Shown piece after piece: positions 1 to 28,823 of a DNA stretch of 64,000 nt. Within the stretch, counting starts at the first letter, position 1. The number at the start of each line of letters is the position of its first letter. Both the position numbers and the translations under genes were made by a program. The stretch is from Gammaproteobacteria bacterium (GTDB taxonomy: Bacteria > Pseudomonadota > Gammaproteobacteria > Acidiferrobacterales > Sulfurifustaceae), in contig JACQFZ010000057.1 in NCBI GenBank assembly GCA_016199745.1, forward strand, positions 1 to 64,000, in the 5' to 3' direction. The notes under the pieces were generated by a model. It saw only the letters and a program-made list of their open reading frames with translations, made no database searches and had not been told where the DNA came from.

Positions 1-121
1 AATGCTACAGATCTTGAGTCTGACCTTGTTCGAGCGAATGCCATTGGATCAGCTACTTAACAACATCATCACGGATGACATCCAGGCGCTTGCGGCTAAT
101 CAGCTGACTTTATTCGATTAA
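1..121 (+). pseudogene. IS4-family transposase, C-terminal fragment
   Basis: An open frame enters from the left edge and stops at TAA 119-121. Its tail has the pattern ILSLTLFERMPLDQLL followed by a final NQLTLFD, which matches the usual C-terminus of IS4-group transposases (a helix ...LFE(K/R)TP... and a terminal QL.LFD). Only about 39 residues lie in the window, so no catalytic residue is visible. The upstream part may be intact outside the window. It points to an insertion sequence just left of the surface cluster. Confidence 0.6.
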
Positions 122-241
122 CGTCCGGACACTACTGATGCTATACATATAGTAAGTATAAAATTGACCCTGAGATCCCCGCTGCGCTGTTAACACCAAT
201 TGCCAAGGAAAGGCTAAAAAACTTCTACATGGAGAGATTCT

Positions 242-3375: not shown

Positions 3376-3451
3376 CGGCGAGCGATAGGAGGTTTGCGCG
3401 ACTCTTCAAGAAAATTGAAAAGTAATTCAGCCCCATGAACCAACAAAAAAT

Positions 3452-3600
3452 CCCCTCTCCCCGCCCTGGCGGGGAGAGGGCGAGGGAGAGGGGTGCGTGA
3501 AAGATCACCTATGCCTACGCATCCCCCTCTCCCTAACCCTCTCCCCCGAAAAACACGGGGGAGAGGGGATGAGTTCGGAGACAAGGGTCAGGGTGAGGGA
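3452..3600. repeat. Two palindromic CCCTCTCCC-type repeats
   Basis: Two adjacent imperfect inverted repeats. 3452-3494 pairs TCCCCTCTCCCCGCC with GGCGGGGAGAGGG. 3523-3566 pairs CCCCTCTCCC and CTCTCCCCCG with CGGGGGAGAGGGG. The right unit runs into the start region of the next gene and its purine-rich arm may serve as ribosome-binding sequence. The same family recurs at 6287, 30612, 31516, 42874, 53605 and 59825. Confidence 0.8.
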
Positions 3601-6600
3601 AATTTGTTACACATTATTTAATCGTTCATGCATCGTCCTATCGTTCTGCGTCGCTCTACTGACACACACCGCTTTCGCCGCGCCACTCGCCGGCAGCCTG
3701 ATCGACAACCAAGCGAGCGTGCGCTACGTCGATTCCGTCACCGGCTTAGCGTCAATGACGACCTCCAACACCGTGCGCATCGTGGTACAGCCGTTCGACG
3801 CCGTGCTGCTCACGCAAAATCAAAGCGTGCAGCGCGCCGCCGGCAGCCACATCAGCTTGGCGCACCGCCTCAGCAACACCGGCAATACCGAGACGACCTA
3901 CGCCCTCGCCGTCGCCAATCTCGGCGGCGACGATTTCGATCTGATCGGTCCGTTGCTCGTGCGCGATCTGAACAGCAACGGCGTCGCCGACGCCAATGAA
4001 CCGGCGATCGGCAGCGTCACGTTAGCGCCCGGCGAGTCGGCCAATCTCGTCATCGTCGGCACCTTGCCGAGCACGCTGTCAGCGGGTACGGCGGCGCGCA
4101 TTCAACTGAGCGCCGTCAGCCAGCGGCAAAATATCGGCGCGCGCAACGACGACGTCATCAGCGCCAGCACCGGCGCCGTGCTGGTAACAACCTTGAGCGC
4201 ATCGACGACGACACCGGCGCGCAACGATAACGTGACGCTGCACCTGGTGACGCGCAACACCGGCGGCGCGCCGGCAACGACGGTGACGTTCAGCGTCGAC
4301 GGCGCAGCCGATAGCGGCGTCTTGCTGCTGCAATCGGTGCCGGCGAACACGACGTTTACCCATGCCCGCTGCCCGGCGAATGCGCGCTTGCTTTATCACT
4401 CGGCCGAGATGCCGGCATCGGTCTATTCGATGAGCGCGCCATCGGATCCGGCGCACGTCATCGACGTGGCCTGCGCCTTCGCGGCGATGGCCATCGGCGA
4501 AACCAACGCGCTCGATGTGCAAGTGAAAATCAACGACAACGCCAGCGGCACGATCACCACCGCCGGTGAGACGATCTACAGCGACGGTGTCGCGCCCGGC
4601 GACAGCCGCGCGCCGTCGAACGACGTGCAACTGCTGGTGCCGATGCAGGCGCCGCGCATCGATTACTACCGCGACAACGACTTCATGCAACGCGCTATCA
4701 ACTTGACGCTCGGCGCACCGCTGCATGTTCAGGTCGACGCCGGCGCCTGCAACACCGATCCGACGGCCGTCGAAACCGTCACCGTCACGATCACCTCGGA
4801 GCTAACCGGCGACAGCGAATCGTACGTCGCCACGGAGACGGCGCCGAACTCCGGCATGTTTCGCTACGCCGGCATACCGACGGCGAACGCCGCCATGACG
4901 CCGCCGGTGATCGGCAGCGGCGCGCTCGAGACCGGCAAGAACGATGTGCTGATGGCGGTCATCCGCGGCTGCGGCGCGACCGAAACCACGACGACGATCT
5001 TCATCGATCCGTTCGGCATCGTCTACGACAGCCGCACCAACTCGCCGCTCGCCGGCATCACGGTGCAACTGATCGACGTCACCGGCGAAGGCAACGGCGG
5101 CAACGCCGGCGGTCCGGCGCTGGTGTTCGAGGATGACGGCCTCACGCCGGCGCCGAGCACGATCGTCACCAGCGCCGACGGCAGCTATCGCTTCGCGTTG
5201 GTGTCGCCGAGCATTTATCGTTTGCAGCTTTCGACGTTGGCCGGTTTTGACTTTCCGTCGCAGCTCGCACCGAGCTTGCAGCCGGCGGGACGCATTATCG
5301 ACGTGTCCGGTTCGTACGGCGGCAACTTTACGATCAGCGCCGCCAGCGGTGCGGTGCGCATCGATATTCCGCTCGACGCCGATGCCGTCGGCGGATTGCT
5401 CACGGAAAAAGTCGCCTCGCGCAATGTCGCCGAGTTCGGCGACTTCATCGAATACACCGTGCAAGTGAAAAATGCCTCCGGCTCGGCGTTGCCGGGGATT
5501 CAATTGGCCGATCGGTTGCCGATCGGATTCATGTATCAACTCGGCAGCGCGCGCCAAGACGGCGCGCGCGTCGGCGATCCCGCCGGCGGACGCGGCCCGG
5601 TGTTGACGTTCAGCCTCGGCAATCTCGCCGACGACGCGATCACGAAGATCGTCTATCGCCTGCGCGTCGGTCCCGGTACGCACCTCGGCGACAACGTCAA
5701 CAGTGCGCAAGCATCGAGCGCAGCGCCGCTGGCGCGCATCAGCAACGTCGCCACGGCGAAAGTGCGCATCGAAGGCGGCGTGTTCGACGATCGCGGTTTC
5801 ATCCTCGGAAAAATATACGCCGACTGCAACGCCGATCGCATTCAAAACGAAGGCGAGCGCGGCATTCCCGGCGTGCGCATTTGGCTCGAGGACGGCACCT
5901 ATGCGATCAGCGACGGCGAAGGTAAATTCAGTTTCTACGGCATCAGCCCGCGCACGCACGTCGCTAAAGTCGATCCGATCACGCTGCCTGCCGGCGCCAA
6001 GCTGGTGCCGCTCGCGCAACGCAACCTCAACGACGGCGACAGCCGCTTCGTCGATTTAAAAAACGGCGAACTGGCGCGCGCCGATTTCGCCGTCGGCAAC
6101 TGCGATGCCGGCGTGATGCAAGAAGTCGAACGCCGGCGCGCGAAAGCGCAACAAGGAAAAGGCGAAGTGGAAGCCGGTGTCGCCAAGCCGCTGAATCTGG
6201 AGAACGCGGGCACGGTTGATCCGCATTCGCTGGCGGCGAGCGGTGTTATCGTTGACACATCTCCTGCCCATGAAACTCCCCATGAATCTCCCTACCCTTC
6301 AAGGGGAGGGCCGGGGTGGGGATGGGGTTCGTGCGATATTTCCGCCGACGCAACCCATCCCCCTCCTGCCCTCCCCCTTGAAGGGGGAGGAACTCATTGT
6401 GTGGAGCGGAAATTGGCTGATGTCATTGGTGATCTCGACAACACCCCGGACTTCATCGCCCTCACCGACGGCGCGGTCCTTTCCGTCCGGCAAATCAAAC
6501 TGCGCGTCAAAGGCGTACTCGACGCACCGCTAACGTTGCGCGTCAACGGCGAAGCCATCGCCGACTCCCGCATCGGCACGCGCGTCGTACATCAAGATCG

Positions 6601-12354: not shown

Positions 12355-12385
12355 TTAACGCACGCGCCAACAGAAAAGTATCGCC

Positions 12386-14179
12386 ATGAAATTTTCTTCC
12401 ATCGGATTGCGCGCGCGGCTGTTGCTGTTGGTGCTGTTCGCGATCGTGCCGACGTTCGTGTTCAGCGGCTACACGACACTCAGGGAATTCAGCGAAGATG
12501 CCGCCGAGGCGAAACGCGTGACGATGGCGGCGGTGCAATTCGCCGCGCAACAGCAAAATCAGATGCTGGCAGCGACACGGCAATTGCTGATCACCTTGTC
12601 GCAACTCTCGGAGCTGAAGCGACCCAGTAGTACCGCCGCGTGCAACCGCATGCTCGCGACACTGCAACAATCTTTTCCGCTCTACACCAACATCGGCGTC
12701 GCCGCACTCGACGGCGACATCTATTGCAACTGGCGGGCGCTTGCGCGCCGCATCAACATCGCTGACCGCAGTTATTTTCGGCGCGCGGTCGAATCGGGCG
12801 ATTTCAGCGTGGGCGATTACCAAATCGGCCGCGTTACCGGTATCAACGCCATCAACTTCGGCTACCCGGTACGCGACGAGCGCGGTGCGGTGCGCGCCAT
12901 CGTTTATGCCGCGCTCGATTTGCGTTGGCTCGAAAAATTCCTGGCCGCGACAAAACTACCCGCCGGCTCCATGCTCACCGTCGTCGACGGACGCGGCACC
13001 GTTCTGGCGAATTACCCGGAATCGAATCGATGGGTCGGGAAAAACGTCGCGGACGCGCCGCTGATCAAAACCATCCTCGCACACGGCACCGACGACAGCG
13101 CCGAGATAACCGGACTGGACGGCACCGACCGCCTCTATGCCTTTAACGTCCTGCAGGATAGCGCGACCGGCAATGTATACGTCGCCGTCGGCATACCGAC
13201 CGACGCCGCCTTCGCCACCGCGCGCGAAGATCTGCGTCGCAACATCCTGCTCATGTCGGTCGTCGCGCTGTTGATTCTGTTCGGAGCGTGGACCGGAAGC
13301 AATGCCTTGGTGCTGAAGCGCGTCAATGCGCTAAGCCACGCGGCGCAACGGCTGGCCAAGGGCGACCTCAACGCGCGTACGGGTCTGGCGCCCGGCAACG
13401 AAGAACTCGGGCAACTGGCGCACAGCTTCGACGACATGGCGAGCGCATTACAACGCGTCAACCGCGCCATGAAAACTTTGAGCGCCGGCAACCGCGCGCT
13501 GGTGCGCGCGGAAGATGAACCGTCGCTGCTGGCAGAGATGTGCCGCGTCATCGTCGACATCGGCGGTTATCGCTTCGCCTGGATCGGTTACACGCAAGAC
13601 GATGAGCACAAAACAGTCCGTCCGATTGCGCAGGCCGGATTCGACGGCGAGCTTGCGACGCTGACGGAGGAAATGGGAACGATCACTTGGTCCGACGACG
13701 AACGCGGTCGCGGCGCCGTCGGTAGCGCGATTCGCAGCGCACAACCTTGCGTCGTCAGAAATATTCCCACCGACTCGAACTTTGCGCCGTGGCGCGCGTT
13801 TGTGACTCGACACGGGCTTGCCTCGGCGGTCGCGTTCCCGCTGCGGGTCCGGGAAAAAATTATCGGCGCGCTCGCTATCTACTCGCAGGAGATCGACGCG
13901 TTCGATACCGAGGAACTCGAGCTGTTGTCCGAAGCGGCGCAGGATCTCGCGTTCGGCATCGGCAGCGCGCGCACGCGCGTGGCGCACGATTCCGCGCAGC
14001 AAACCATCGTGCATCTAGCGCGCTACGACCGACTCACCGGCCTGCCCAACCATGCGCATTTCGAAGAGCGCCTGCCGCAGGCGCTGACGCAGATCGGCGA
14101 TGTTGGTAGGGTCGCGACGAGCACTATCGCCAAAGAGGCCCATCGTGACCCGATGAGGGCAGCGCACAAGATCATATAG
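12386..14179 (+). CDS. dCache-HAMP-GAF sensor with truncated GGDEF domain
   Basis: 597 aa. Transmembrane helix 1 (~10-29) and helix 2 (~282-303) flank a periplasmic dCache-type sensor domain. A HAMP linker follows (~308-360), then a GAF domain (~381-531), then the opening of a GGDEF domain, LARYDRLTGLPNHAHFEERLPQAL. After that (~14095-14107) the sequence leaves the family, the frame runs on through foreign sequence (RVATSTIAKEAHRDP...) and stops. The GG(D/E)EF active site and everything after it are missing, so c-di-GMP synthesis is not possible from this product. The gene starts 31 bp after the surface cluster and may have been co-transcribed with it. The truncation point is also the left end of the genomic island. 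It could still act as a membrane sensor, but is best seen as a broken diguanylate cyclase. Confidence 0.85.
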   Translation: MKFSSIGLRARLLLLVLFAIVPTFVFSGYTTLREFSEDAAEAKRVTMAAVQFAAQQQNQMLAATRQLLITLSQLSELKRPSSTAACNRMLATLQQSFPLYTNIGVAALDGDIYCNWRALARRINIADRSYFRRAVESGDFSVGDYQIGRVTGINAINFGYPVRDERGAVRAIVYAALDLRWLEKFLAATKLPAGSMLTVVDGRGTVLANYPESNRWVGKNVADAPLIKTILAHGTDDSAEITGLDGTDRLYAFNVLQDSATGNVYVAVGIPTDAAFATAREDLRRNILLMSVVALLILFGAWTGSNALVLKRVNALSHAAQRLAKGDLNARTGLAPGNEELGQLAHSFDDMASALQRVNRAMKTLSAGNRALVRAEDEPSLLAEMCRVIVDIGGYRFAWIGYTQDDEHKTVRPIAQAGFDGELATLTEEMGTITWSDDERGRGAVGSAIRSAQPCVVRNIPTDSNFAPWRAFVTRHGLASAVAFPLRVREKIIGALAIYSQEIDAFDTEELELLSEAAQDLAFGIGSARTRVAHDSAQQTIVHLARYDRLTGLPNHAHFEERLPQALTQIGDVGRVATSTIAKEAHRDPMRAAHKII

Positions 14180-14360: not shown

Positions 14361-15702
14361 TTACACGCGAATAAATTCCTTGCCTTCGTAGTACACAGTA
14401 ATATCACCATCAGCACTTATCTTTATCGCTAGACCGTAGTTTGAGGCGCCAATCGCTGCCTTCAGTGCCGCTGAGTCGTCCCGATTTCTTCGGTTGAAGT
14501 ACTGCGCCGTACGCTAGAATTTTCCCGGAATTATCCAGCACAATCGCGCCGTCGAGCGACGCTAGTTCAACGACGACGGGTCGAGCGAGCGACTGAATAG
14601 AATGGTCTATAAGCACCGCGTCGAACTCGCGATCTGTCTGGCTCCGTTTACTTTCGCTGCCGATCGCGTCACCGGTTCTAACAATGTCACGTAGATTGTT
14701 TCGATTGTGCAAGATTACGAATAGCCCGCCGGACCGCCGAAACGATACGTCCAATACCGCCCGATATATCGCTCCGACCACGCGACCGCGGATTGTTGCA
14801 GGAACGCGCTGCGCCCGCGCCCTATCTTTCAACAAACTTAATAGATGCGCATGATTCCAATATTGCCATCGACCATAACGATAGGTGAATCTTAGTGTTC
14901 CTTTGTCAAAAACCAGAATGTCGCCCTGCCTGCTCAACGCTACGCCACATTTCCCATAACGGCTAGCACGAGCAATCGGTTCGGCCCAATCTGGATAATA
15001 GTGTTTCTCTGTAAGCGACTTTTCATTGAAACGATCCAAATCAACGAAATTTATAATTCGTCCATCGCTTGAAACGTGATAGGCGCTTCGAAATCCATCC
15101 GAAAGAGCCTTGTATTTTTTCGTATCGATAAAATCCTTCGGAAACTTTGCCCCTACATTTTTTTCCCTGTGACTTGGATCGAGTATACAACCGAACGTCA
15201 GCGACTTGTTCTCGTAGCTCTGCTCGGACAAAGTATGGAGAGCATCAAATACCGCACTTATGGACAACGTTAAGTTGTGATGTTGAGCGACGTGGTGCGC
15301 TACAACCTGCTCATCAAAGGAATCACGAATCGCTTGCAACGAAGCTGCGCTATTATCCGACGTGGACGGCCGAAGTACTTCTGATATTCGATCGACCACT
15401 CTCTTACATATGTCGTGTTCTCTAACATCGAGCGTCTGTTTGACACTGCCACCTACTATCGGTACACGCCGGCGCTGCACTACTGCGGTCAGGGATCGAT
15501 GCTGGCCAATTGCGGCTGACATCTCAATCGCCGTTCTCTTTTTGGACGCCCACACAGATTTGGGTTGACCCAAAAGATTCTCTTTCCACGTGGAAACTTC
15601 CACGTGCGGCAAAATCCGTTGAACAGCTCCAACAGCGAACTCTACAAATTCGACTTCTGCTGGGCTAAGTCGGCGCTTCAACCGACTGTTGGCTCTGAGC
15701 AT
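14361..15702 (-). pseudogene. Diadenylate-cyclase-fold (DisA_N-like) protein, frameshifted
   Basis: The first frame (ATG 15700-15702) gives 430 aa and stops at 14410. A second frame continues the domain to TAA 14361-14363, so one frameshift lies near 14495-14505. About 300 N-terminal residues match no family I recognise. The C-terminal ~140 look like the DAC domain of DisA/CdaA: SGGLFVILHNRNNLRDIVRTG, then LDGAIVLDNSGKILAYGAVL (the DGA motif), then in the shifted frame NRRNRDDSAALKAAIGAS and YGLAIKISADGDITVYYEG. Where active cyclases have G-T-R-H-R-A-A, this has N-R-D-D-S-A-A, so the catalytic His/Arg are missing. That suggests a nucleotide-sensing rather than c-di-AMP-making domain (inference). 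It starts 43 bp after mod and is visibly more AT-rich than the core genome. A sequencing error is an alternative to a true frameshift. Confidence 0.6.
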
Positions 15703-15745
15703 GTTTCCGTTCTTGGCTTATACAAAAATAAATCTGGCCTATTTC

Positions 15746-18002
15746 CTACACGCTCACCGGCACAAGAACCATTGTGTCGTTACCAAAGATGTCGATCACC
15801 TTTACGGCGACGGTGTAGCGGCCGGCTTTAGTATAGGTCCGCGGTGCCGAGGTGCGTTCCAACTCACGATTCTTGCGGGTGCGGAAGCTTTGCCATTCGT
15901 TTTCGAAAATGTAGCCGCCGGTCCAACGTTCTTCGAAATTGTTCTCCGCTACCTCCGGTTTTGATGAATCTCCGAATGCGGGATCAACTACACCCGAGTC
16001 GCGCGGGACTTTGATGATTTCCTTGCGGTGCATGTAGTCGAAGTCCACGGCCCAGTAGTCCACCCAGTCGGTCCAGTGGTTGGTGAGCACTTCACGCTTG
16101 ATGACACCTTCTTTATCTTTGCTCACCTTGATGAGCTTACCCTGTTCGCACACGACTTCGCTCTTGCCGTTCTTGAGGCTCGCAGCGGCGGCCTCGGCGG
16201 CGCCTTGACTGTAATACACGGAGAAATCCGTCAACTCGATACGGAGCGTGAACTTGTCTTTCTTTTCGTAGCGCGGCGTGGCTTCCACAAAGCTGATGTC
16301 GTGGAATACTACTTGCCCTTTTTCGACGGCGCGTTTGTCGAAGACTTCCGCCGGTATGAATTTCGGCGCGAGATCAATACCCTTCTGCTTCGCTTCATCC
16401 AGTGCGGCGGGAAATAGGCCCATTTCGAACTCGAACGCGAGGACATCAACACGCGTCGCTCCGCGCTTGCGACATTCTGTGATTACCTCTTCCACGAACA
16501 GCCGCCCCACGGGCAGATTGATCGGTCCGACCACGACCAGCCGACCGGCGTTCTTGCCGTGGAAAAAATTGGCGTCTTCCAGTGGCTGTGCACGATAGGC
16601 ACGAAGAATGAGGTCGCGGAACTCTCTTTCCTTCTGGGCAAGTGCTTCTTCTTTCTGCTTACCGCTCAGCCGACCACCGACATTCAGGTACGCCTGACGT
16701 TCGTAACGGCCGAGATTCAGAACCTCGAAAGCGCGGAACGGCTTGCCGGACTCCTTGCACTCGCGCTGCACCCGAATTAGACGCTTACGCGTGGTGTGGA
16801 TGCCGAACTTGCCGAGATCGGTGGCAATCCATTTGCGCCCGAGCTTTTCGGCCACGGCGACGGTCGTGCCGCTGCCGCAGAAAAAGTCAGCCACCAAATC
16901 GCCTTCGTTACTGCTGGCAGTGATAATGCGCTCAAGTAGGGCTTCGGGCTTTTGAGTTGCGTAGCCAGTACTCTCGTCGTTGTGACCTGAGACATCTTTA
17001 ATTTCAGTCCAGCAACAACCGACGGTTACGCCGGGCTTATCTGCCAAGTACTGCTTGAGATTTAACGCGCCGTCTTTCCCTAGAATGATGCGCCCATTTT
17101 TCTCGAACTCTGAAATTGAAGTTGGTGAATAGTCTCGAACATCTCGCATCCGATATGGCCCACGCCCGTCTTTGTCGTCGTAACGGTAATTTACCAAGGT
17201 CTGTTCACTGTAGTCGCTGAACTGACGCGTGTAGGCATATTTGTCACTCTTACTCACCCAGATGATATGGTCGGCGTCGCGTGGGTATTGCCGCCCTTTC
17301 GTGTTGCTCGCGCCCGTAGCTCGCCGCCACACGATTTCGTTGCGATAGTTTTGTTCTCCGAATACTTCAATCATTGTGGTTCGGAGATAGCTGTTGAGTC
17401 GCCAATCACAATGCACGTAGATACTGCCCTCGTTGTGCATTACAATCACGCATGAGGATAAGGCGTTCGTAAATCATGGCGATGAAGGAATCCGCGCCGC
17501 GTCCCCACGTATCGCGATATGCGATTTGTTCGAGCAGATTCGGTTCTTTGTGAAATGTCTCACCGCCGATCTCGATGTCCATCGAGAAATCAGCACCGAC
17601 ATCGAACGGCGGGTCGATGTAGATCAGCTTGAGGCCGCCCGCATCTTCGATCTGCCGGCGCAGCGCGCCGCTCTTGAGCGAAGAAAGAATCAGCTTGTTA
17701 TCACCCCAGATGAGTTTATTGGTCCAGCCTTTGAGCTGACGGCCACGGAAATCAAAAAGATCGCCTTGAATTTCCGGCCGCTCCTTGCGCGGTTCGTCCA
17801 CGTGCTCCAACGATTGAAACGGCAACACCGTGGTACAGACCTCGCGCGTCTTGCCGTTCCACACCAACTCTACCTCGCGCTTGTCTTCAAAAAGAACGAA
17901 GCGGTATTTCTCCGGTAACGGCTTGCCCTGCTGGATGAGCTGTATCAGGTCGCGCTTCTCGGCGTCCGTCAGGTCGTAGGCTTCTTTCGGTGGACGGGCC
18001 AT
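15746..18002 (-). pseudogene. mod: Type III DNA methyltransferase Mod, split by a frameshift
   Basis: Beta-class adenine-N6 methyltransferase, the modification and recognition subunit of a type III R-M system. The N-terminal frame (ATG 18000-18002; a TTG at 18011 overlaps the rhuM stop) carries LIYIDPPFDVGADF (motif IV, ~residue 128). It runs to ERLILMRDC and then falls out of frame, stopping at 17406. The other frame resumes at 17449 (IVMHNEGSIYVHCDW) and carries motif I ADFFCGSGTTVAVAEKLGRKWI plus the usual C-terminal domain (RYEKKDKFTLRIELTDFSVYY) to 15746. Motif IV before motif I is the normal order for this class. A single missing base near 17445 restores the frame. No homopolymer or repeat tract is present there, so it does not look phase-variable. 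As written, active Mod is not made, which should also disable Res. Confidence 0.85.
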
Positions 18003-18007
18003 GGCGG

Positions 18008-19054
18008 TCAACTCTTCTTCGGTTTTTTCGGTTTGACTGATTTCTTGCGCGGCATCCGCGCCGGGAGTTTCTTCACGGCCTCGTCGAAATCTCTCTCCAC
18101 GCGGGATGTTTGTGCAAGTTGCCTTACACGGTATTTTTCAAATTCCAGCTCTGCTTTTTGCAATGCTGCATCATGGGAGATTTTTCCCGCGTGCGGGAGA
18201 ATTTCCCGTTCGCTGAGACGCAGATATTCGTCCAGCTTCGCAATCCAGCTTTGCATGGTCATCGGTTTGCGGTTCAATGCCTGAAGCTCGGCAAATTCCA
18301 GGTAAAGGGTGACGATGCGATTCAGCACATCGAGTTCTTCAGGCGTCAGGTAATTCTTGGCGATTGCCGCTTCATCTTTCCTTGGCTTTTCGCCCAGCCA
18401 GCTCGTCATCCCCATGCTCGGCTTGGTCGCATCGGCGCGCGCATGGACGATTTCGGCGGCGGTGTTTCCGTGTGCTGCCCAGTGCATCTTGTTTTGCACC
18501 GTGGCGAAGAAACGTTGGGTTGCCTCCTCGGTGGGGTCGTAGTCGATGCTGGTGGCGTAGATATCCAGCACCTTGCGCCAGAACACTTTTTCCGACGAGC
18601 GTATGTCGCGGATGCGCGCCAGCAGTTCATCGAAGTAATTGCCACCGCCCGCGCGTTTGAGCCGCTCGTCGTCGAGCGCGAAACCCTTGACGATGTATTC
18701 TCGCAGCCGCTGCGTGGCCCAGATGCGGAACTGGACGCCACGATGGGATTTGACGCGGTAGCCGACCGAGATGACGACGTCGAGGCTATAGAACCGGGTG
18801 TCGTAGAGCTTGCCGTCGGCGGCAGTTATCCGGAAATTCCGGATAACTGAAGATTCATTTAACTCCCTTTCCTCGAAAACATTTCGGATATGTTCGGAAA
18901 TCGTGCGCACGTTCTTACCGAACAGTTCACCCATCTGCTTTTGGCTTAACCAAACGGTATCGCCGATCATCCGGGTTTCCAGTCGCGTCTTGCCGTCCTC
19001 TGTCTGGTACAGGAGGATTTCGCCGGCCGATTCGGGTGGGTCGCGGTCTGCCAT
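18008..19054 (-). CDS. RhuM-family protein
   Basis: 348 aa, started at the ATG after ...GAGAGATTGAGGCG (an upstream extension to 19186 overlaps res and is not needed). The protein matches the 'virulence protein RhuM' family: VWLSQKQMGELFGKNVRTISEHIRNVFEERELNESSVIRNF (a winged-helix-like N-terminal part), TRFYSLDVVISVGYRVKSHRGVQFRIWATQRLREYIVKG, and a long helical C-terminus ending in Lys/Pro-rich KKSVKPKKPKKS. The family's biochemical role is unknown, but RhuM genes are often embedded in type I and III R-M loci. Here it is 4 nt behind res and 5 nt ahead of mod, which implies one transcript and possibly a regulatory or DNA-binding accessory role (inference). Confidence 0.85.
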   Translation of the reverse strand: MADRDPPESAGEILLYQTEDGKTRLETRMIGDTVWLSQKQMGELFGKNVRTISEHIRNVFEERELNESSVIRNFRITAADGKLYDTRFYSLDVVISVGYRVKSHRGVQFRIWATQRLREYIVKGFALDDERLKRAGGGNYFDELLARIRDIRSSEKVFWRKVLDIYATSIDYDPTEEATQRFFATVQNKMHWAAHGNTAAEIVHARADATKPSMGMTSWLGEKPRKDEAAIAKNYLTPEELDVLNRIVTLYLEFAELQALNRKPMTMQSWIAKLDEYLRLSEREILPHAGKISHDAALQKAELEFEKYRVRQLAQTSRVERDFDEAVKKLPARMPRKKSVKPKKPKKS

Positions 19055-19058
19055 CGCC

Positions 19059-21776
19059 TCAATCTCTCCGGTACTCGGTAAAGGAAGCGGCCAGACCAGC
19101 GAAGTCTTTCGGGGTGTACTTTTCGAATCCAGCTTGATCCACGTACACGAAGCGGTAAGCGGGCCCATTCTCGATGCGGCTCGCACCGGTTGCGTCCGTG
19201 CACCACTGGTGCAACCGCGCCATCTTTTGCGGCAAGTCGAGTTCTTCCCGGCCTTTGGTCTCGATGATCCAGACCGTGTTGTCGGTAGTCTTCACGATGA
19301 AGTCGGGCGTATACGTGGAAAGATCGCCATCTGCCTTGACGTAATCGATCTTGAAACCGACGGCGAGATAATTTTTGGCAAAGGCCGCGATGTCCGGTGC
19401 GTCGTCAAGAAAACGAGCAAAGTCCAACTCGAAACCACCTGCATGCGGTTCGCCGACGATCTTGCTGAATAACGATCGCTTCGGCGTCAGGTACGGACGG
19501 TTTTCGGTGCGAAACGGCCGCGTGTTCCGTAACCGAATGTAGTCTTCGATTCGCGACGAGCCGGATTCTTGGATGGTGAGTACATTGATGGCGGTTTTGA
19601 ATGAGTCGAACAATATCTTGCCGGCCTCGGGTTCGGAAAGATTGCGCAGCACCACGGGGTCTTCAAGGTTCGCTGGCGATGCGTCGAACAGGTGACCGAC
19701 CACGAAGGCTTTTACCTTGGGGTAAAGCAGATCGTAACCGCCGACGAGACGTAATTCCTTCAGAATCTGCCGAGCGAAGAAGCCGACAACCGAACGATAG
19801 TCGGCGGCACCCACTGCGTCCAGTCGAATGGTGTGATGCACTTCGCCGTCGAGCATGGTTTTGAAAACGATCTCGCGAGTCTCTTCCGGCGTAAAGGGTT
19901 TCAGCGGAAGTTTGGGATTACCGAAACTGGCCGGATCGAGCGCATCCGGATTTTTGAACTCGCGGTTGAAGCGACGAGAAAGCCGGGGAAGCTTGATGTC
20001 CAGCGCGTCGAGATTCTTGTCGGTATTCTGCGCGTCCACTTCGACAACCAGCGAATCCTTACGGCCCAAACCCGTGCCCATCGGCACGCGCTCGAAGGTG
20101 ACGCCTTCGCTTTGAATGGACTCAACGAACTCCATGAACGGCGGCGTACCCATCACCGAAACCGTTTCCTGTATATCTGACCCGAAATACATGCGACGCA
20201 GACCGCGACCTAGCGTTTGCTCGGGCAGGATGTCGCTCGTTGCCGCGTAGGCGCGTAAGCCGACAATGGTGGTAACGTTACGAACGTCCCACCCTTCCTT
20301 CAGCATCAAAACGGACACGATGGCCTTAAATTGGCTCTGCCAACTATCTATCTCATTGGCCTGCTTACGCAGGATTTCCAAATCTTCCTTGTTCTTACCC
20401 GAAGCCGCCTCGGAGATTTCACCATTGTTCTTAGTGTGAATAACAAGTACCGCACCTTGCAGCTCAGGACAGATTCGTTGCAGATACGCGCCGACTTCGT
20501 CGCAGTTACGCGTGTCGTCGACCATTACGAATAGCACGGCTTTCTTGCCCAGTACTTCGTGCTCGGCGCAACTCTTGCGCCATTCTTCAACACCAAGCTG
20601 TAAGTAGTCGGCGTAGTGCTCGGTAAAGATGGCACTCTTGTGTTCATGCAGCCGGGCACGGCTGGCGGCATCGGGCAACACCGGGTGTTTGACGACGTTT
20701 TGGTGGATGGCCTCGACCAGCGGATAGTCCGAAACTGTTTGCACGAAGATGGCGCCGTTGTTGTGCCGAGGCGTTGCCGTCACGTCCACTTGCAGCGCCA
20801 GGCGGGCATCCTTTTGCAGCATGCGATGATGGATGTCCTGAATGCTCTTGAACCAAGCTAGGCGGCTATCGTGGATGTGATGCGCCTCGTCATTGAAAAC
20901 AGCAAGCTCTTCTATCTCGCGGACGATCTCGCCCAAATCTGTTTTGCTGTCGGTTGTCTTGCCGACTGGTTTTGGACCAAAGGGCGAAAGGAAGTAGTCG
21001 CGCAGATCGTCGTCTTCGAGCGACGGCTCGTGGACATCGCCGAGAAAGACGCGGTGAATGTTGGTAAGAAAAAGATTGCCTGTTTCTTTAACTACTCGGA
21101 CATCATCCTGAATGTGCAGCGTGATCTGGAAATCATCGCGCCAATTGCGGCCAACATGACCGTTATCTGGGAGGATAGGATCGTTAAAGAAAATGCGCAG
21201 CCCGTCGAAATCATGGCGCAGGCGGTCGAGAACGATGATGTTTGGCGCGATTAATAAGAAATTTCTCGCCAGCGTGGAGTCTGTTTCGTACAACTTGTGG
21301 AAGTAGCTCCACGCAATCAGCAGCGACAGAACTTTTGTCTTTCCAGCTCCGGTTGCCATCTTTAAGACATAGCGCGGCCATTCCTCGTCGAACATTCCAG
21401 CTGAAACCGCCCCGGACGCGTCGAAGCGGAATAGATCAAATTTATCTCGCACTTTGCGCACGTCGTGGAGCCAGATGACGGTTTCCACTGCTTCGCGTTG
21501 CGCAAAGTAATAGCGGAACGACGACAACGAGCTATCGGCCTGTTCAACCAGGTGCTCGGTCTCGAACCACCATTTCAGAAGTCCGCGGGACGTATCCGAG
21601 GCGCCTGCGTAGCCTGCCTCCCGCCACGCGGTAACTTCGCTGCGAATCTTGGCTACTAACGGGGGAAGTAACTTTTCGTAGGCGGTACTGCGCAGCTCTT
21701 CAGCAGCTGGGAACCAGCGCTGATCGGGCAGCAGCTCGGCGTACGGGGACTCGGGGAAATCAGGATGGAGCGCCAC
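19059..21776 (-). CDS. res: Type III restriction enzyme Res subunit (DEAD/DEAH helicase-nuclease)
   Basis: 905 aa, full length for the family. The helicase motifs are intact: Walker A MATGAGKT (140-147), DEAH box NDEAHH (~293), VTATPRH (~334), KEGWDVRN and motif VI QTLGRGLRR (~520-528). A PD-(D/E)xK nuclease follows near the end (TYTPDFIVKT...WIIETKGREE, ~822-846). In type III systems Res translocates or diffuses on DNA after Mod recognises two head-to-head unmethylated sites, then cuts ~25-27 nt away. It is the first gene of a co-directional res-rhuM-mod-DAC operon. The gene itself shows no lesion, in contrast to the frameshifted mod downstream. Without a working Mod it should be inactive, or dependent on another Mod. 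Confidence 0.92.
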   Translation of the reverse strand: MALHPDFPESPYAELLPDQRWFPAAEELRSTAYEKLLPPLVAKIRSEVTAWREAGYAGASDTSRGLLKWWFETEHLVEQADSSLSSFRYYFAQREAVETVIWLHDVRKVRDKFDLFRFDASGAVSAGMFDEEWPRYVLKMATGAGKTKVLSLLIAWSYFHKLYETDSTLARNFLLIAPNIIVLDRLRHDFDGLRIFFNDPILPDNGHVGRNWRDDFQITLHIQDDVRVVKETGNLFLTNIHRVFLGDVHEPSLEDDDLRDYFLSPFGPKPVGKTTDSKTDLGEIVREIEELAVFNDEAHHIHDSRLAWFKSIQDIHHRMLQKDARLALQVDVTATPRHNNGAIFVQTVSDYPLVEAIHQNVVKHPVLPDAASRARLHEHKSAIFTEHYADYLQLGVEEWRKSCAEHEVLGKKAVLFVMVDDTRNCDEVGAYLQRICPELQGAVLVIHTKNNGEISEAASGKNKEDLEILRKQANEIDSWQSQFKAIVSVLMLKEGWDVRNVTTIVGLRAYAATSDILPEQTLGRGLRRMYFGSDIQETVSVMGTPPFMEFVESIQSEGVTFERVPMGTGLGRKDSLVVEVDAQNTDKNLDALDIKLPRLSRRFNREFKNPDALDPASFGNPKLPLKPFTPEETREIVFKTMLDGEVHHTIRLDAVGAADYRSVVGFFARQILKELRLVGGYDLLYPKVKAFVVGHLFDASPANLEDPVVLRNLSEPEAGKILFDSFKTAINVLTIQESGSSRIEDYIRLRNTRPFRTENRPYLTPKRSLFSKIVGEPHAGGFELDFARFLDDAPDIAAFAKNYLAVGFKIDYVKADGDLSTYTPDFIVKTTDNTVWIIETKGREELDLPQKMARLHQWCTDATGASRIENGPAYRFVYVDQAGFEKYTPKDFAGLAASFTEYRRD

Positions 21777-22250: not shown

Positions 22251-23254
22251 GACTGCTTCTCCTGCTTGGTTGATGTGGTGGCGCTGAATGCGCCGTCTTC
22301 ACTTGGGGAAACGTGCGGGCATGCGGAGCGTGTGACGGGTTCTGCGCTGTATGCAGGTTCCGGCGCTGCGTGAGGCAATGGCGTAGTGGCGCGCGAGAGG
22401 CGGCGTGACCGTGCTCATCAACCAGGTAGAGTGGCACAAGATCATCAACGGCCGACCTCAATACTGCCGTGTCGAACGAGCGAGCTTACGAGGGTAGAGA
22501 CGTCAGTCGCTCAGGAGATCGCTTCGATGAAATTTTCTGCAAGACCGTGCGTGGGCTGGAATATATGCACCGTACGTCTTTATGCTTCGCGAGCTTTCTG
22601 CCGGGCCTGAAAGCCGTGCGTGAGGTGCGACTGTGCGCCAATTGGCGGATGTATTACCACATCCACAGTAAGCCGATGTGGTCGCGCGACTCGTGAGCAC
22701 ATTGACCACGCCCCGTCGGCACTGATCGAAGCGCTGAAAGCGGTGTCGCCTGGATTGAACTGCCATATCGATAACTATGAACAGCAGGGCACGACAGTTC
22801 GGGCGGCGAGCAGTATCGTCTCGAACAAGAAAGCGCGCCATGACGCCCGCCGCAATCTCCGTGATCGGTTGCTTGACATATCACCGTCGAGATGGCCGAT
22901 AGATCAATACCGTTCACGTGGCTGAATGACTCGACGGTACAAACAGTGACGGCATCGTTGTTGAGGTACGACGTATTACGTTGCGTAACAAGCGTGTCGT
23001 CGACTTTCCGGACACAGCGAACTCACGGAAACGATGCTCAATATGAGCGCGTTGCAGATTTTTATATTGAGCAGGAATTGCTCGATCAGTGGAGAACACA
23101 ATTCAACTCACCGCTGATGGCGAAACGGATGCACAGAACCGTGTCATTTAGCAGGTAGCGCCCGGTGTCTTTGTCGACGAGCAGGAACTGCCGAAGCATG
23201 TCGCACAAATGGCGCTGTTCCAGCCGACCACACAACTACCTGACATCGAAAGGG
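22251..23254. other. No supported gene; degenerate island DNA
   Basis: About 1 kb in which every reading frame is short and none resembles a known protein. Several frames of 60-110 residues exist on both strands but lack ribosome-binding sites and conserved motifs. It lies between the R-M operon and the tRNA-derived att repeat, where an integrase gene would be expected, but I find no tyrosine-recombinase motif (R...HxxR...Y). Confidence 0.55.
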
Positions 23255-23302
23255 AAATGGTGGCTATGGGTGGACTCGAACCACCGACCTCAGCATTATG
23301 AG
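23255..23302. repeat. att direct repeat: copy of tRNA-Met 3' half
   Basis: 48 bp identical to 27509-27556. It contains the complement of the tRNA-Met CCA end, acceptor 3' strand, T-arm and the sequence up to the anticodon CAT. It has no 5' half, so it is not a tRNA gene but the distal attachment site of an element integrated into the tRNA. Confidence 0.9.
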
Positions 23303-23395
23303 GTAGTGTGATAATGTGTAACTGATTGTTTTCGTTAAACCACGACCGAACGCCCATTGCACCGTTTGCAGTACTTGGCATAACGAAGCACAACC

Positions 23396-23417
23396 AGTCC
23401 CGCAAAAATCCCGCAAC
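23396..23417. repeat. Putative integrase arm sites, left
   Basis: AGTCCCGCAAAAATCCCGCA shows two TCCCGCAA units 11 bp apart. Similar units occur at 27423-27446 (ATCCCCGTAAAAGTCCCGCA), just inside the other end of the element. Paired repeats of this form commonly flank tRNA-integrated islands and are read as integrase arm-binding sites. Confidence 0.5.
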
Positions 23418-23467
23418 GCGGCACCAATCGGGCTGCCGCAAGTCACGAGCACATCAGTTAAATCGTG

Positions 23468-26400
23468 CTACTCGCGCGCCCGATCTCCATTGGCCGACGG
23501 CCGTTGTACGGGCAGAATCTGAGCCAAATGTGAAAATGTTCCCGCGTTCCGCCACGCTTCTTTATTTCCTACCACGTAGAGTCTTCGTTTTGCCCGCGTC
23601 ACCGCGACGTTCAACAAGTTTGGAGGATGACCTGCCCAATTTCTTGCGCCGGCCGACGCTTCATGCGAGGCACCGAGAACCAGCACGACTGCTTCTGCTT
23701 CCTTTCCTTGGAAGGTGTGAACGGTTCCCACGCGCTTATTTGTCCATTCCCACGCGGTTGTCGGCAATCGCTCCGATATTGAACGATTCGATCGAATCAT
23801 CTCTCTTATTTTCTTTGCAACGATTCTGAACGGTGTGATAACAAAAATATCGGGTTCCTTAATGCCTCGGTCGAGCAACTTTCCTAGTAATTTAAGTACC
23901 TGCTGGCCTTCTGCCTCGGACCACTTTCCATCTGATCCGCCGTTTACATTGATCCATGAACTCTCGCCGAGTATTTCCCCAATCTGAGACGAGTCAACAG
24001 GCGTTCCGTATACCATCTTTCCGTCATAGGCGATGTGATTGGAAATCTTGAACATAGGATTTTCACAGCGTCGATGAACACGTAGTGGCGAACCAACCCA
24101 TATCTCGCCATCATCGTTCAGTATATTTGTACCAAACCAACTAACTCGGTCGGCTAGTGTCTGTGCAGACATATCAGGTGCCGCCCACTCCTCAGCCTCA
24201 ACACCAAACTCGGCAAATATCGAACGAATGAGCTTCGGTGGCACAGTTACCACAGGTTGAATTTGAAGCGGATCTCCAATTACGACGGCTCGTTTTGCAC
24301 GCCACAAAGCGCCGATAGCCGCCTGCGGCACCGCTTGCCCGGCCTCGTCGATGAGAAGCCAGCCAAGTTGTTCTTTGTCTAACGGGCCAAAAAGCCTCGC
24401 TACCGAAGCGAAGGTAGTTGAGATGACCGGTACAACGAGAAACAAGCTGGCCCAGAGGGATTTCCGTGTAGGTTCCTGGTTCTCCTTTAGAACCCGACCT
24501 TTCATTACATCCAACGCTGCCCGAAGATTATTCCGTAATGGTTTTGCTGCCGCATCAATGAACGCTCGATGCAAAGAGAATGTTTCAAGAAAAAGTGAGT
24601 CGCGCGCTTGCTGTAATTCGTCGAAAACCCATGGCGACTGAAGTTGCAGGCTGTGATCTTCTTGCGCCCAAAATGCTTCATCTGCGAAATTGAAGTCGGC
24701 TTTTTTACGGAATTCATCTATTGTTGAGACAATCTGCGCCAAAGCACTTTCAGCTTTATTTTTTTCCAATTCAAGGCCGTCAGCCTTCTTGTTCGCCGAT
24801 TGAGTCTCACCAGCAGCTTTTTGGGTACCTTCGAATGACGTTTTTAATTGGACTCCCGCCTGGTTAAGAGCTTCAAGCGCTGTCGTCATTCGACCTTGCC
24901 ATTCCCGATACGAACGGGTGCCAAATAGACGAGCAAAGAAACCTGGACGTAGGCGGTCAGCTGAGTCTAGGTTCATCTGCGCTATTCGCGCTGCTTCGGA
25001 TGCTCTTTCATGCAAATGCTTGCAGTTCTCTTCATTCTGCTGAGCCGAAACTAAATTCCGCTTGGCATCGGTGAGCGCGCGCGTTGAATCATCTAATCGC
25101 TGAGCAGCGGCAGGACGCTGACACATAGCCTCATGTGCCGATTGTGCTTGCTTTTGTAGGGCCTCAACGTTTTTATACTTAGCCAAAAAGCTTCGGCGTG
25201 CGATCCTCCAATTTTCCAGCGCCTCAATTTCACTGCGAGGCGGTCTCTCAATCGCTACGACATCGAGAATATTTTGTTCGTCGCCCTCTTCTTCATCATC
25301 TTCGTCTTCCGGAATATCACCGCCCATTACGGCCTTAAGGTACAGCGCCATTCCACGCCTCTTGTGCCACCAGAACGCCTGCGCGAACGCCGATCGATTG
25401 GCTGAGTTTCCTAATACCGCGGCTGCCAACCCCCAAGTCGCGCCTTCCGTAATCGCGCCCTTGCCAGCGGCAACAACGTCGGCAATCGAACGAAAATATT
25501 GCGCGGGAGGATTTAAGTCATTCGCGATAGCGGCCGTCGAAGGAATTTCGCGGCTGATGTTTTCGACTGCCTTATTGTTCGAAGATGCGACGACGATCTC
25601 GTGACCTATCAACCGCTGATCTAGTTGATACAAATGGGTGTATGCCTGTCCGGTTCTCATTTTAGTTACATGAGAGAACGCTTGCAGCGGATTATCGAAT
25701 TTCGACATCACAACAGCTCTGTCGAGCACCACCTTTGCCACGATGTCGCGCAGCAGGGTGGTCTTTCCAGTTCCAGGCGGGCCATTAACCGAAACGATCC
25801 CGCCATTGGCAAGTTCTGTTATCGCGTGGTTAATAGCCGCTTGTTGCATTAGGACGAGAGGATGACGGCCGGGTCCTGGCCAACGCGCCAAAGGCATTCT
25901 TCTAGGTGCAAGCGTCTTGGCGACAATACCTCTGTCCCGTATTACGTCTTGCCGTTCGCGGGAAGCCGTGGCTCCCATGTATGCCGACAATGCCTGACCA
26001 ACTTGACCGCCTCTGAACGCAGCGCGAGCCTTGACCAAATCTTCTATAAAAAAACTATTAAGAAGCTCCGGCTCTGGTGCCTCTTGGTATCCGCCCCATT
26101 GTGGAACGCGTATTGCGACCCCTGGCCGCATTATTTCTGCTTCAGATAGATTTAATACTTTTACCAGCCACGTGATCGCCTGGTCGATGTGAGCACCCGT
26201 AAGTGGAAGTATCTTGCCGTCGTCGCTCTGTCTTACGAGTCCTCGTTCGAGCTTCGCTTTGATTACTCGTTCAGCATCTACAAAGCCGGCCAATCCTTTC
26301 AAATGCCCTGCGCGCACTTGGCCGTATCCCCAGGCGAAGCTCGATAGGAACGTCTTGCTTTCGACCGGTCGGCCGTAGCTATCCACAACGATCACGGCGA

Positions 26401-27157
26401 GGGTGGTGTTGCCGCTGATATCTGCACGCTCGTCGACTGCCGCATCCGGATAGAGTTTTAGGAACGCTTCTGCCGCCTTTGCGAGATCAAGCTCCCCGAG
26501 ATAGACCATCCAATAAACAGCACGCTCCTTACCACGTTTACCAAAACGCGGTTCGCGCCAGGGTTCGGGACACTCTTTTAGTTTTACGAGCTGCCGTCCT
26601 ATCGACTCTGTTTCTCGTGCATCGGGGATCGGCTGGAGCGCTAAAACCTCAAGCGTGAGCCATGCCGCCAGAACTGAGTCTGGTCCAGGCAAGATTTCCA
26701 CTTCTGGCGCAAATTGGGGGCCGTCGTCGTCAAAAATTGCTACAACTTCGCCCGCCTCGATCCTCTCTTGCCTAAGAGGAACAACGTCAGATACGCAAGA
26801 GGAATCCGCACTATCGGTTCCATTCATAACGAATGAGCTCGAACTAGGCGATCTCTTTTCTAACGTTGTCGCTAGGAACGTTTCGACCAACACGCCTTCG
26901 TCAGATATGGCTGACCTTTGCTCAGGAAATGCGATGTTATCCTTCGAAGCGAACGGTAGATCGAGCGCTGACGTTTGACTGGCTGCTGAAAGCCTCTCCT
27001 CAATCTTTCTTGCTAGCACATTTGCCCGATTTGTATTGCGATGTTTCAGCTCATCGCACAGATCGTTTAACAGCGTCCGGTCTTCCTTCGATGATTCGAA
27101 CAACTGCTCAAGTTCAACGATTGAAGACCTAAAGTAACGTCTGTCTTTGACAACCAT
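23468..27157 (-). CDS. Superfamily-1 (Upf1/DNA2-like) helicase with coiled-coil insert
   Basis: 1,229 aa. I start at the ATG after GGAAGGGGAAGCGA. A frame extension to 27235 lacks a ribosome-binding site. An N-terminal ~430 residues of unknown fold are followed by a COG1112-type SF1B helicase: SVNGPPGTGKTTLL (Walker A, ~450-463), VVASSNNKAVENISREIP (motif Ia/Ib), then a 150-200-residue coiled coil inserted within the helicase core (~645-800, EALQKQAQSAHEAMCQ...), LLIDEAGQAVPQ (motif II, ~933), VVIGDPLQIQPV (III), VGTVHTFQGKEAEAVVLV (V, ~1140) and NVAVTRAKRRLYVVGN (VI, ~1180). All core motifs are intact, which suggests a functional ATPase. It is the only gene of a tRNA-integrated element and sits beside a restriction operon, so a role in phage or plasmid defence is plausible (inference). 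No fused nuclease or PLD domain is seen. Codon and base composition differ from the core genes. Confidence 0.88.
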   Translation of the reverse strand: MVVKDRRYFRSSIVELEQLFESSKEDRTLLNDLCDELKHRNTNRANVLARKIEERLSAASQTSALDLPFASKDNIAFPEQRSAISDEGVLVETFLATTLEKRSPSSSSFVMNGTDSADSSCVSDVVPLRQERIEAGEVVAIFDDDGPQFAPEVEILPGPDSVLAAWLTLEVLALQPIPDARETESIGRQLVKLKECPEPWREPRFGKRGKERAVYWMVYLGELDLAKAAEAFLKLYPDAAVDERADISGNTTLAVIVVDSYGRPVESKTFLSSFAWGYGQVRAGHLKGLAGFVDAERVIKAKLERGLVRQSDDGKILPLTGAHIDQAITWLVKVLNLSEAEIMRPGVAIRVPQWGGYQEAPEPELLNSFFIEDLVKARAAFRGGQVGQALSAYMGATASRERQDVIRDRGIVAKTLAPRRMPLARWPGPGRHPLVLMQQAAINHAITELANGGIVSVNGPPGTGKTTLLRDIVAKVVLDRAVVMSKFDNPLQAFSHVTKMRTGQAYTHLYQLDQRLIGHEIVVASSNNKAVENISREIPSTAAIANDLNPPAQYFRSIADVVAAGKGAITEGATWGLAAAVLGNSANRSAFAQAFWWHKRRGMALYLKAVMGGDIPEDEDDEEEGDEQNILDVVAIERPPRSEIEALENWRIARRSFLAKYKNVEALQKQAQSAHEAMCQRPAAAQRLDDSTRALTDAKRNLVSAQQNEENCKHLHERASEAARIAQMNLDSADRLRPGFFARLFGTRSYREWQGRMTTALEALNQAGVQLKTSFEGTQKAAGETQSANKKADGLELEKNKAESALAQIVSTIDEFRKKADFNFADEAFWAQEDHSLQLQSPWVFDELQQARDSLFLETFSLHRAFIDAAAKPLRNNLRAALDVMKGRVLKENQEPTRKSLWASLFLVVPVISTTFASVARLFGPLDKEQLGWLLIDEAGQAVPQAAIGALWRAKRAVVIGDPLQIQPVVTVPPKLIRSIFAEFGVEAEEWAAPDMSAQTLADRVSWFGTNILNDDGEIWVGSPLRVHRRCENPMFKISNHIAYDGKMVYGTPVDSSQIGEILGESSWINVNGGSDGKWSEAEGQQVLKLLGKLLDRGIKEPDIFVITPFRIVAKKIREMIRSNRSISERLPTTAWEWTNKRVGTVHTFQGKEAEAVVLVLGASHEASAGARNWAGHPPNLLNVAVTRAKRRLYVVGNKEAWRNAGTFSHLAQILPVQRPSANGDRARE

Positions 27158-27511
27158 TCGCTTCCCCTTCCATGGTCGATCCGAATACGCGCTCAACAAG
27201 TTGAGCTTGCAATACAAACACAGATGACTAGGCAAACCAACAACGTAACGAAGGCTACGGGTTAGGCGCTACTTCGACCATCGAGCGGAGCACTACAGCC
27301 CCGCACGTCGATAACTTGAGTAAAGCTATCTCAAAATCGACAAGCGGAATCTATTGAGATTAATAGAGAAGTAAACTTTCAACGCATGCGCCCTGAGAGC
27401 CAAGCGGAGCATTTTTCCGGATAAATCCCCGTAAAAGTCCCGCAAGCACATCGTCAAAAAAAGTACGTGCAGTTAGAGGGGTTGTAACCAGCTGACGCAT
27501 TGGGGAAAAAA
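27158..27511. other. Upstream region of the helicase gene
   Basis: About 350 bp of AT-rich DNA with no gene. It must hold the helicase promoter, but I see no convincing -35/-10 pair. The distal part carries the right-hand putative arm repeats (27423-27446) next to the att site. Confidence 0.5.
27423..27446. repeat. Putative integrase arm sites, right
   Basis: AAATCCCCGTAAAAGTCCCG followed by CAAG: two TCCC(C)G(T/C)AA units in the same spacing style as 23396-23417 at the other end of the element. They lie 63 bp inside the right att copy. Confidence 0.5.
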
Positions 27512-27556
27512 TGGTGGCTATGGGTGGACTCGAACCACCGACCTCAGCATTATGAG
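27509..27556. repeat. att direct repeat within tRNA-Met
   Basis: 48 bp identical to 23255-23302. It covers the tRNA's 3' half plus 3 bases beyond CCA. Integration here keeps the tRNA complete. Confidence 0.9.
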
Positions 27557-27588
27557 TGCCGCGCTCTAACCAGCTGAGCTACATAGCC
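27512..27588 (-). tRNA. tRNA-Met (CAT), elongator type
   Basis: 77 nt including an encoded CCA. The 5' end GGCTATG pairs with CATAGCC. The D-arm is AGCTCAGCTGGTTAGAGC, the anticodon loop CTCATAA gives CAT, and the T-arm is GGTGGTTCGAGTCCACC. The body resembles E. coli metT/metU elongator tRNA rather than the initiator (it has a paired first base pair, G-C). It is the integration site of the helicase element. Confidence 0.93.
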
Positions 27589-27668: not shown

Positions 27669-28823
27669 CTAACGACGGGTAACGATCTGGTACTGCGGGC
27701 CCGGCTGGAAAGCATTGTCGGGTACCTGCTCGATACCGACGGCGTAAATTTCGTACAGGTAGTCGATGATCGGCTTGCCGGCGTTTTTCGCTTCCATCGA
27801 CTTCTGCGCCTTGTCTTTGGCGATCTTGTCGGCGGTGCCCTTAATAAAGCTTTCGGCGCTGGCCTTCAGTCCGCTTAAACCACCGGAAAAACTAATGCCC
27901 TTCGACTCTTCTTTGGGCGCTTCGGCGCTTTTGCGCTCTTCGGGGCAGCTCTTGCTGTCGCTGGTCAATACCGTGCGGATCGATACCGGGTAGCCCTTGA
28001 GCTTGCTGATTTCACGCTGGAAGTCTGACTGCTTCGACAACCCATTCAGCTGCGGCCCGAACTGGCCGACCATGGCGCCGATATCGAGATACTGGCCGAG
28101 CGGAAGCAACTGCGCGAACAGTGAGCCGTCGGCGACGTTTTTATAGTACGCACGCGAGAACACCTCGTTGACGCGCCAGACGTCGCGGATCGCCGGCGTC
28201 TCGGCCGTGTTCCAGTACGTCAGCGTCAGTTCCATCACGTCCTTACGCTTCTGCTTGTCCTGGGTAACCATGCGCCAGGTCGCGACATATTCTTGCGAAT
28301 AAAATCCGTTGACGTTGCGCCACTGACCGGTCTCCTTGACCTTGAAACTGTTCTCCACCGTCGACAGCACGCAACTCGGCGGCGGTGCTTCGGCACCATC
28401 CGACTCCTCGCCTTCTGGCGGCACGCCCGTCATATTGAACAAGTTCGTGCCGCAACCCTTGAGCGGACACTCCTCGTAGCGCTTGCGCTTCGGATCGAGG
28501 TGCCACTGAAGATTTTTGTCGAGGCGGGCAATGTCCACGGTTTTGGTGCTCTCGTCGTACAGCGCCGGCAGGGCATCTTTCGGATAGCTGTTACCGCGAC
28601 CCAAGGCGCGCCGATCCTCGCGCGCGAACACAACTTGGTCACCCCGTATCGTCGGTAACGCTTTGATGTTGATGGTGTAGTGCGCACGCAACGTGGCGGT
28701 AGGTGCGGTCGGCAATAACGGTTCTTGCAGCTCGGGCTTAGCACACGCCGACAACAACACTAACGCCGATACCGCCGTGACGGCGAATAGGCGAACCACT
28801 GCTGTTTTTTTCTGAATACTCAT
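27669..28823 (-). CDS. Lipoprotein of unknown function
   Basis: 384 aa. The signal peptide ends in a lipobox (VSALVLLSAC, Cys ~27) after a basic start MSIQKK, so the product is a lipid-anchored envelope protein. The gene is preceded by GGGAGGACTC, a good ribosome-binding site. The middle contains CPLKGCGTNLF and several Trp/Tyr-rich strands. The C-terminal third has a Lys/Ala-rich helical segment (AESFIKGTADKIAKDKAQKSMEAKNAG). I recognise no family. It is transcribed in the same direction as ychF but separated from the downstream tRNA by a hairpin. Confidence 0.8.
   Translation of the reverse strand: MSIQKKTAVVRLFAVTAVSALVLLSACAKPELQEPLLPTAPTATLRAHYTINIKALPTIRGDQVVFAREDRRALGRGNSYPKDALPALYDESTKTVDIARLDKNLQWHLDPKRKRYEECPLKGCGTNLFNMTGVPPEGEESDGAEAPPPSCVLSTVENSFKVKETGQWRNVNGFYSQEYVATWRMVTQDKQKRKDVMELTLTYWNTAETPAIRDVWRVNEVFSRAYYKNVADGSLFAQLLPLGQYLDIGAMVGQFGPQLNGLSKQSDFQREISKLKGYPVSIRTVLTSDSKSCPEERKSAEAPKEESKGISFSGGLSGLKASAESFIKGTADKIAKDKAQKSMEAKNAGKPIIDYLYEIYAVGIEQVPDNAFQPGPQYQIVTRR

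Follow-up and report, generated by a model that had tools for sequence, protein, structure and literature searches.

We propose that a 4.25-kb unit at a tRNA-Met gene in this 64,000-nucleotide stretch of gammaproteobacterial DNA (the window) is an integrative element without an integrase of its own, and we consider it reasonably probable that it resembles a cis-mobilizable element (CIME) and could move only with a related integrase from elsewhere. Since the unit has both recombination ends but contains no integrase, we regard it as a probable defence cassette, much reduced, that relies on an enzyme produced outside it.

The unit is bracketed by an exact 48-bp direct repeat (23255-23302 and 27509-27556, both on the minus strand), whose copies are 4,254 bp apart, so that the duplication of the tRNA-Met 3' half described in the first-pass annotation is borne out. 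The tRNA-side copy is the att core within an intact tRNA-Met(CAT) (27512-27588, minus strand), the integration target, which was found by ARAGORN and throughout the order has ychF as its neighbour; the distal copy is a 3' fragment displaced from the gene but oriented like it, as in tRNA-borne islands. The repeat extends from the anticodon loop (tRNA nucleotide 33) to 3 bp past the CCA. In Islander, crossovers fall mainly at two positions, of which the anticodon loop is one (PMC4383910). Only these two copies occur in the 4.26-Mb genome, in which the next matches are ordinary tRNAs at 77-81%. The interval had also been called AT-rich. Its G+C content is 51%, against 62% for positions 1-14100 of the window and 59% to the right of the tRNA, but the description holds only in a relative sense because the left neighbour (14.2-23.25 kb) is likewise low at 54%. 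Could the repeat be an unrelated pseudo-tRNA or duplication, with the helicase gene as an intergenic acquisition? We counted nothing for this explanation, whereas the exact identity of the copies, their boundary at the anticodon loop and the homology of the att arms lying inward of the distal copy all argue against it. In addition, the distal copy is absent from 8 relatives with at least 11 kb sequenced 3' of the same tRNA-Met, and a copy occurs in a single relative, G025 of the same order (below), where it ends another arm-bearing island. This explanation is extremely improbable and is refuted as far as sequence can refute it.

Just inside both ends of the unit lie short repeats, which the first-pass annotation had noticed and which we could identify as arm-type sites. 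On the distal side, a pair of TCCCGCAA with a period of 11 bp, TCCCGCAA-AAA-TCCCGCAA, stands 95 bp inside the core at 23398-23416 and ends a post-core att arm (23303-23416, plus strand). On the tRNA side, the pair CCCGTAAAAGTCCCGCAAG (27428-27446, plus strand) has a degenerate first half, leaving a single TCCCGCAA at 27438-27445, 65 bp before the tRNA-Met CCA. The spaced TCCCGCAA pair occurs once in the whole genome, and a reversed-pattern control gave 0 matches. To assess the homology of the post-core arm, we performed global alignments of the 130 bp after the core with 500 shuffles. Against an integrase-bearing unit on contig C14 of the same genome (unit A, below) the window arm scored 92, compared with 39.1 +/- 6.2 for shuffled sequences (z 8.5), and against the tRNA-Met unit of G025 it reached z 6.6; in each of these two comparisons 0/500 shuffles attained the observed score. 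Against the arm of a phage, z was 3.6 for the window and 7.5 for C14. The homologous stretch covers about 110 bp inside the distal repeat, and the pre-core flanks are conserved less (window versus C14 unit A, z 3.0). Arm sites thus lie inside both ends and share homology with the arms of a genuine integrase unit, and judged by this homology the ends of the window unit are real attachment sites of a tRNA-targeting tyrosine integrase family.

The exact 19-mer arm pair was found once in 2.9 million viral contigs, namely in the phage contig L160. A general scan for TCCCGCAA pairs gave mostly chance matches, yet pointed to L160; eight matches to a tRNA-Met core plus arm in viral contigs were rejected as due to chance, and a longer att-arm pattern had 0 matches in viral contigs. 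In the attP of L160 the pair (19/19) follows the stop codon of a 360-aa tyrosine integrase by 37 bp and precedes a tRNA 3' half by 47 bp; 98 bp beyond that half comes CCCGCAAAAGTCCCGCAAG, which matches the window's other pair in 18/19 bases. Past the stop codon of related phage integrases, too, there is a pair with an 11-bp period and after it a tRNA-Pro half, with other arm words. A match of the tRNA half to a Legionella plasmid was set aside, as no integrase is annotated in that stretch and MiaB and RluD genes adjoin it.

An intact integrase in the window's own genome (G000:C14:118657-119739) shares 60% identity over 356 aa with that of L160. Its gene has TCACGCAA-AAC-TCCCGCAA overlapping the stop codon or just past it (11 bp), and beyond these arms is a tRNA-Phe-like 3' half at 118551-118599, a name that reflects our reading of the half sequence, as ARAGORN finds no full tRNA there. 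A second half-tRNA at 124363-124411 is 48/49 identical to the first, and between both halves unit A holds the integrase, GmrSD-N, AbiEi and AbiEii genes. Unit B follows in tandem and shares the half-tRNA and the pre-core flank as far as the position of the integrase stop, after which it diverges, contains no integrase and carries two DNA methylase genes; we did not find the distal end of unit B. The tandem of both units spans G000:C14:118551-127591 (L249/L250). The same genome also has, next to tRNA-Lys, a family integrase cut short to 187 aa with a lone TCCCGCA arm (L076, 2260-2971).

The same tRNA-Met is occupied elsewhere in the order. In G025 the gene lies at C58:6917-6993, and a copy of its nucleotides 33-58 lies at 25706-25731 (E 2.4e-7); TTGCGGGA is found at 7052, and some 95 bp inward of the distal tRNA copy there is an arm pair. 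The 18.7-kb unit so delimited (G025:C58:6917-25731; L043, L245) has about twenty ORFs, with no PF00589 match inside. Its cargo includes arsM and an asparagine-synthase-like gene, among others. Other integrases of G025 are family members at other tRNAs; none stands beside a tRNA-Met half, and we found no Met-specific family integrase either in G025 or in the window's genome. In G024 (L040) an 11-bp-period pair, TTGCGACAATCCTGCGACA, is located 42 bp after tRNA-Met, and within 17.4 kb there is no distal copy of the tRNA; this locus is possibly another island of the same kind with a different arm word. A search for empty sites through the flanking proteins (27669-28823 and 9490-12354) returned no homologues in the genomes searched.

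No integrase gene lies between the repeats. A genome-wide PF00589 search recovered 13 integrases, zero of them in the window, and we saw no integrase trace above chance at 27158-27445; a weak trace at 23303-23467 (3/200 with one query out of three) was discounted after multiple tests. The unit therefore does not encode its own integrase, and the concern that such a gene had simply been missed inside it can be put aside. Outside the distal repeat and abutting its core, however, there is probably a short integrase remnant (23176-23250, plus strand). This 30-residue stretch reads DEQ-ELPKHVAQMALF... and aligns to residues 174-204 of the family integrases; in a six-frame scan of the 64 kb it was the top local match of the C14 integrase (BLOSUM62 Smith-Waterman score 57, next 50), beaten by 0/200 shuffles. 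We grade it as no more than probable because, in a profile search alone, its score was no higher than that of shuffles. Its place and orientation are those expected for the integrase of an outer island in tandem.

To the left of the unit is a block of low G+C (14410-21776, minus strand), annotated with Pfam, PADLOC, NCBIfam and composition, which comprises a DAC-like ORF, a split type III mod gene, RhuM and a BPTD_3080-like Res gene. We read this block as an outer tandem island that has decayed. The type III mod gene is broken up between two ORFs (15746-17449 and 17406-18011, minus strand) that overlap and differ in frame, owing to either a frameshift or an assembly error, and the restriction-modification (R-M) operon is otherwise complete. 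Between mod and res is a RhuM family gene (18008-19186, minus strand; PADLOC PDC-S05, 8e-150). The 430-aa DAC-like ORF (14410-15702, minus strand) has a weak DisA/DAC match of 1.3e-4, below the cut-off, and its GC3 of 0.49 is low like that of the helicase gene (0.50), while the R-M genes have 0.64-0.67. The left border of the block is a Cache-HAMP-GAF-GGDEF gene (12386-14179, plus strand) that is cut at the start of its GGDEF domain (about 14.1 kb) and whose homologues have about 990 aa. We found no third tRNA copy near this border.

This layout bears on two other histories. One is that 14.1-27.5 kb is a composite island whose sole integrase survives as the remnant seen at 23.18 kb, and in which tandem accretion left the internal core as a scar. 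The low G+C across 14.2-27.5 kb would fit such an island, as would the standard position and orientation of the remnant by the internal core. The difference in GC3 between the helicase gene and the R-M genes, the left end unmarked by a third tRNA copy and the arms that the helicase unit has at both of its own ends speak against it, and we regard it as unlikely. It overlaps with the CIME-like reading and differs from it only in who supplied the integrase. The other history is that of a dead remnant, in which a helicase island lost its own integrase after integration and is now immobile, kept because the helicase is useful. The interval without an integrase, the half-degenerate pre-core arm pair where an integrase ended, and the decay of the outer block, with its truncated GGDEF gene and split mod gene, are what such a history would leave. 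Yet the two 48-bp cores have not diverged and the distal arm pair remains perfect, an intact integrase with homologous arms is present in the same genome, and two other integrase-less units belong to the same att class; we see the dead remnant as doubtful, though somewhat less so than the composite island.

The CIME-like reading that we prefer could be accounted for as follows. The ends of the unit are complete att sites of the family, in which arm pairs with an 11-bp period stand on both sides of a core that occupies the tRNA 3' half and is cut off at the anticodon loop. A family integrase would have placed the helicase unit at tRNA-Met, and the unit would then have lacked, or lost, the integrase gene that normally lies just beyond the pre-core arm. 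Excision as a 4,254-bp circle and re-entry to tRNA-Met would occur only with a related integrase, which a tandem neighbour or another element would have to provide. The first-pass annotation had suggested movement by an integrase in trans. This is plausible in that an intact relative with homologous arms exists in the same genome, but it stays hypothetical for the Met core, since the one family integrase that we identified as intact in this genome has a core of tRNA-Phe type. For the CIME-like reading we counted the repeat, the arms, L160, C14 units A and B, G025, the integrase remnant and the solitary helicase homologues; against it we counted the tRNA-Phe-type core, the half-degenerate pre-core pair, the lack of a second helicase locus and the shortness of the remnant.

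The cargo is one intact gene, as originally described. A single ORF occupies the interval between the repeats (23468-27235, minus strand), and from the ATG at 27157 it encodes a 1,229-aa SF1B helicase of the Upf1-like type (23468-27157, minus strand) with the Pfam domains AAA_12 (5.6e-17) and AAA_11 (2.4e-15). The helicase motifs are intact in the window protein: in an alignment of ten homologues, Walker A, DEAG, GDPxQ and the C-terminal VAVTRAK are conserved, except in one truncated at a shorter ORF. Compared with a 70%-identical relative in G009, pN was 0.19 and pS 0.80 (pS being saturated), and the gene is under purifying selection. The N-terminal ~390 residues matched no Pfam family, and their structure was poorly predicted (pLDDT 39.6). 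In G009 (L006/L034) the helicase gene stands alone, 157 bp from the 3' end of tRNA-Asn and beside a HigBA-like toxin-antitoxin pair; we rejected this locus as a second tRNA-borne unit, as it has neither a tRNA duplication nor flank homology. The expectation that the same helicase would be found between tRNA-Met copies elsewhere failed, with no second locus in the genomes searched.

Homologues of the helicase are patchy, occurring in 2/57 genomes of the order and in 5 others among 369 genomes drawn from the class, and they are solitary in most of the varied contexts seen. On the basis of this patchy, mostly solitary distribution and of the company kept, the Upf1/Mokosh-like helicase probably acts against phages or other invading DNA or RNA. 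Its best PADLOC model is MkoC of the Mokosh system (5.6e-66, helicase core only), a restriction endonuclease gene follows the helicase homologue in two cases, and neighbouring units hold R-M and AbiE/GmrSD genes. These observations, like the patchiness, weigh against the alternative of an RNA/DNA housekeeping or mobile-element maintenance factor of the Upf1/IGHMBP2 kind, which concerns the cargo alone. That alternative draws on the nearest named model (TIGR00376), on the nearest solved structures (UPF1, NAM7 and SMUBP-2) and on the many homologues located on conjugative plasmids; it is a serious possibility, though the lesser one.

Several known systems share features with the unit. CIMEs are by definition decayed ICEs or IMEs (Pavlovic 2004, as quoted in PMC5704250), and in the streptococcal literature they keep attL and attR, have lost their recombination and transfer genes and move only with help (PMC5704250, PMC7563491). 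The window unit likewise keeps attL and attR without recombination or transfer genes, and it lies at a tRNA 3' end by a decayed element with cargo within the reported 1.2-13 kb. It differs in that it has no relaxase, T4SS, or conjugation or mobilisation relic and in that the related integrases are of the phage or genomic-island type, and an origin from an ICE or IME is conjectural. Related integrases are found in phages, and tandem layouts are seen in the window and at C14. As in the tDNA islands of Islander, an intact tRNA and a displaced 3' fragment mark the ends and the crossover is at the anticodon loop (type A); Islander discards candidates without an integrase (PMC4383910), so the window unit would be filtered out. 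The SF1 helicase core matches MkoC of Mokosh type II at residues 425-952 (E 5.6e-66), but the match ends at profile position 952 of 1136 and, in the Pfam scan, the window helicase had no phospholipase-D (PLD) nuclease domain. Tycheposons are also tRNA-bordered cargo elements with tRNA-Met among their targets, but they are described as having a tyrosine recombinase (PMC10872708) and the window unit has none. We rejected a phage satellite of the PICI or P4-like kind, since the unit has a single helicase gene and no packaging, capsid-hijack or replication genes; the label "satellite" that the unit had been given is thus unsupported in the phage sense.

As integrase-less defence cassettes of one lineage, the tRNA-Met helicase unit, C14 unit B and the G025 unit may share one homologous att design and be moved in trans by a few family integrases, a generalisation that we put forward tentatively and think rather improbable as it stands. 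If it is true, such shared-att cassettes would form a modular system that keeps cargo and recombinase apart. Units without an integrase escape island finders that demand one, and the conserved att arm provides a concrete search signature for further ones. If the units are moved in trans, defence genes would travel as single-gene cassettes that are spared the cost of a recombinase, and a single intact integrase could mobilise several cassettes.
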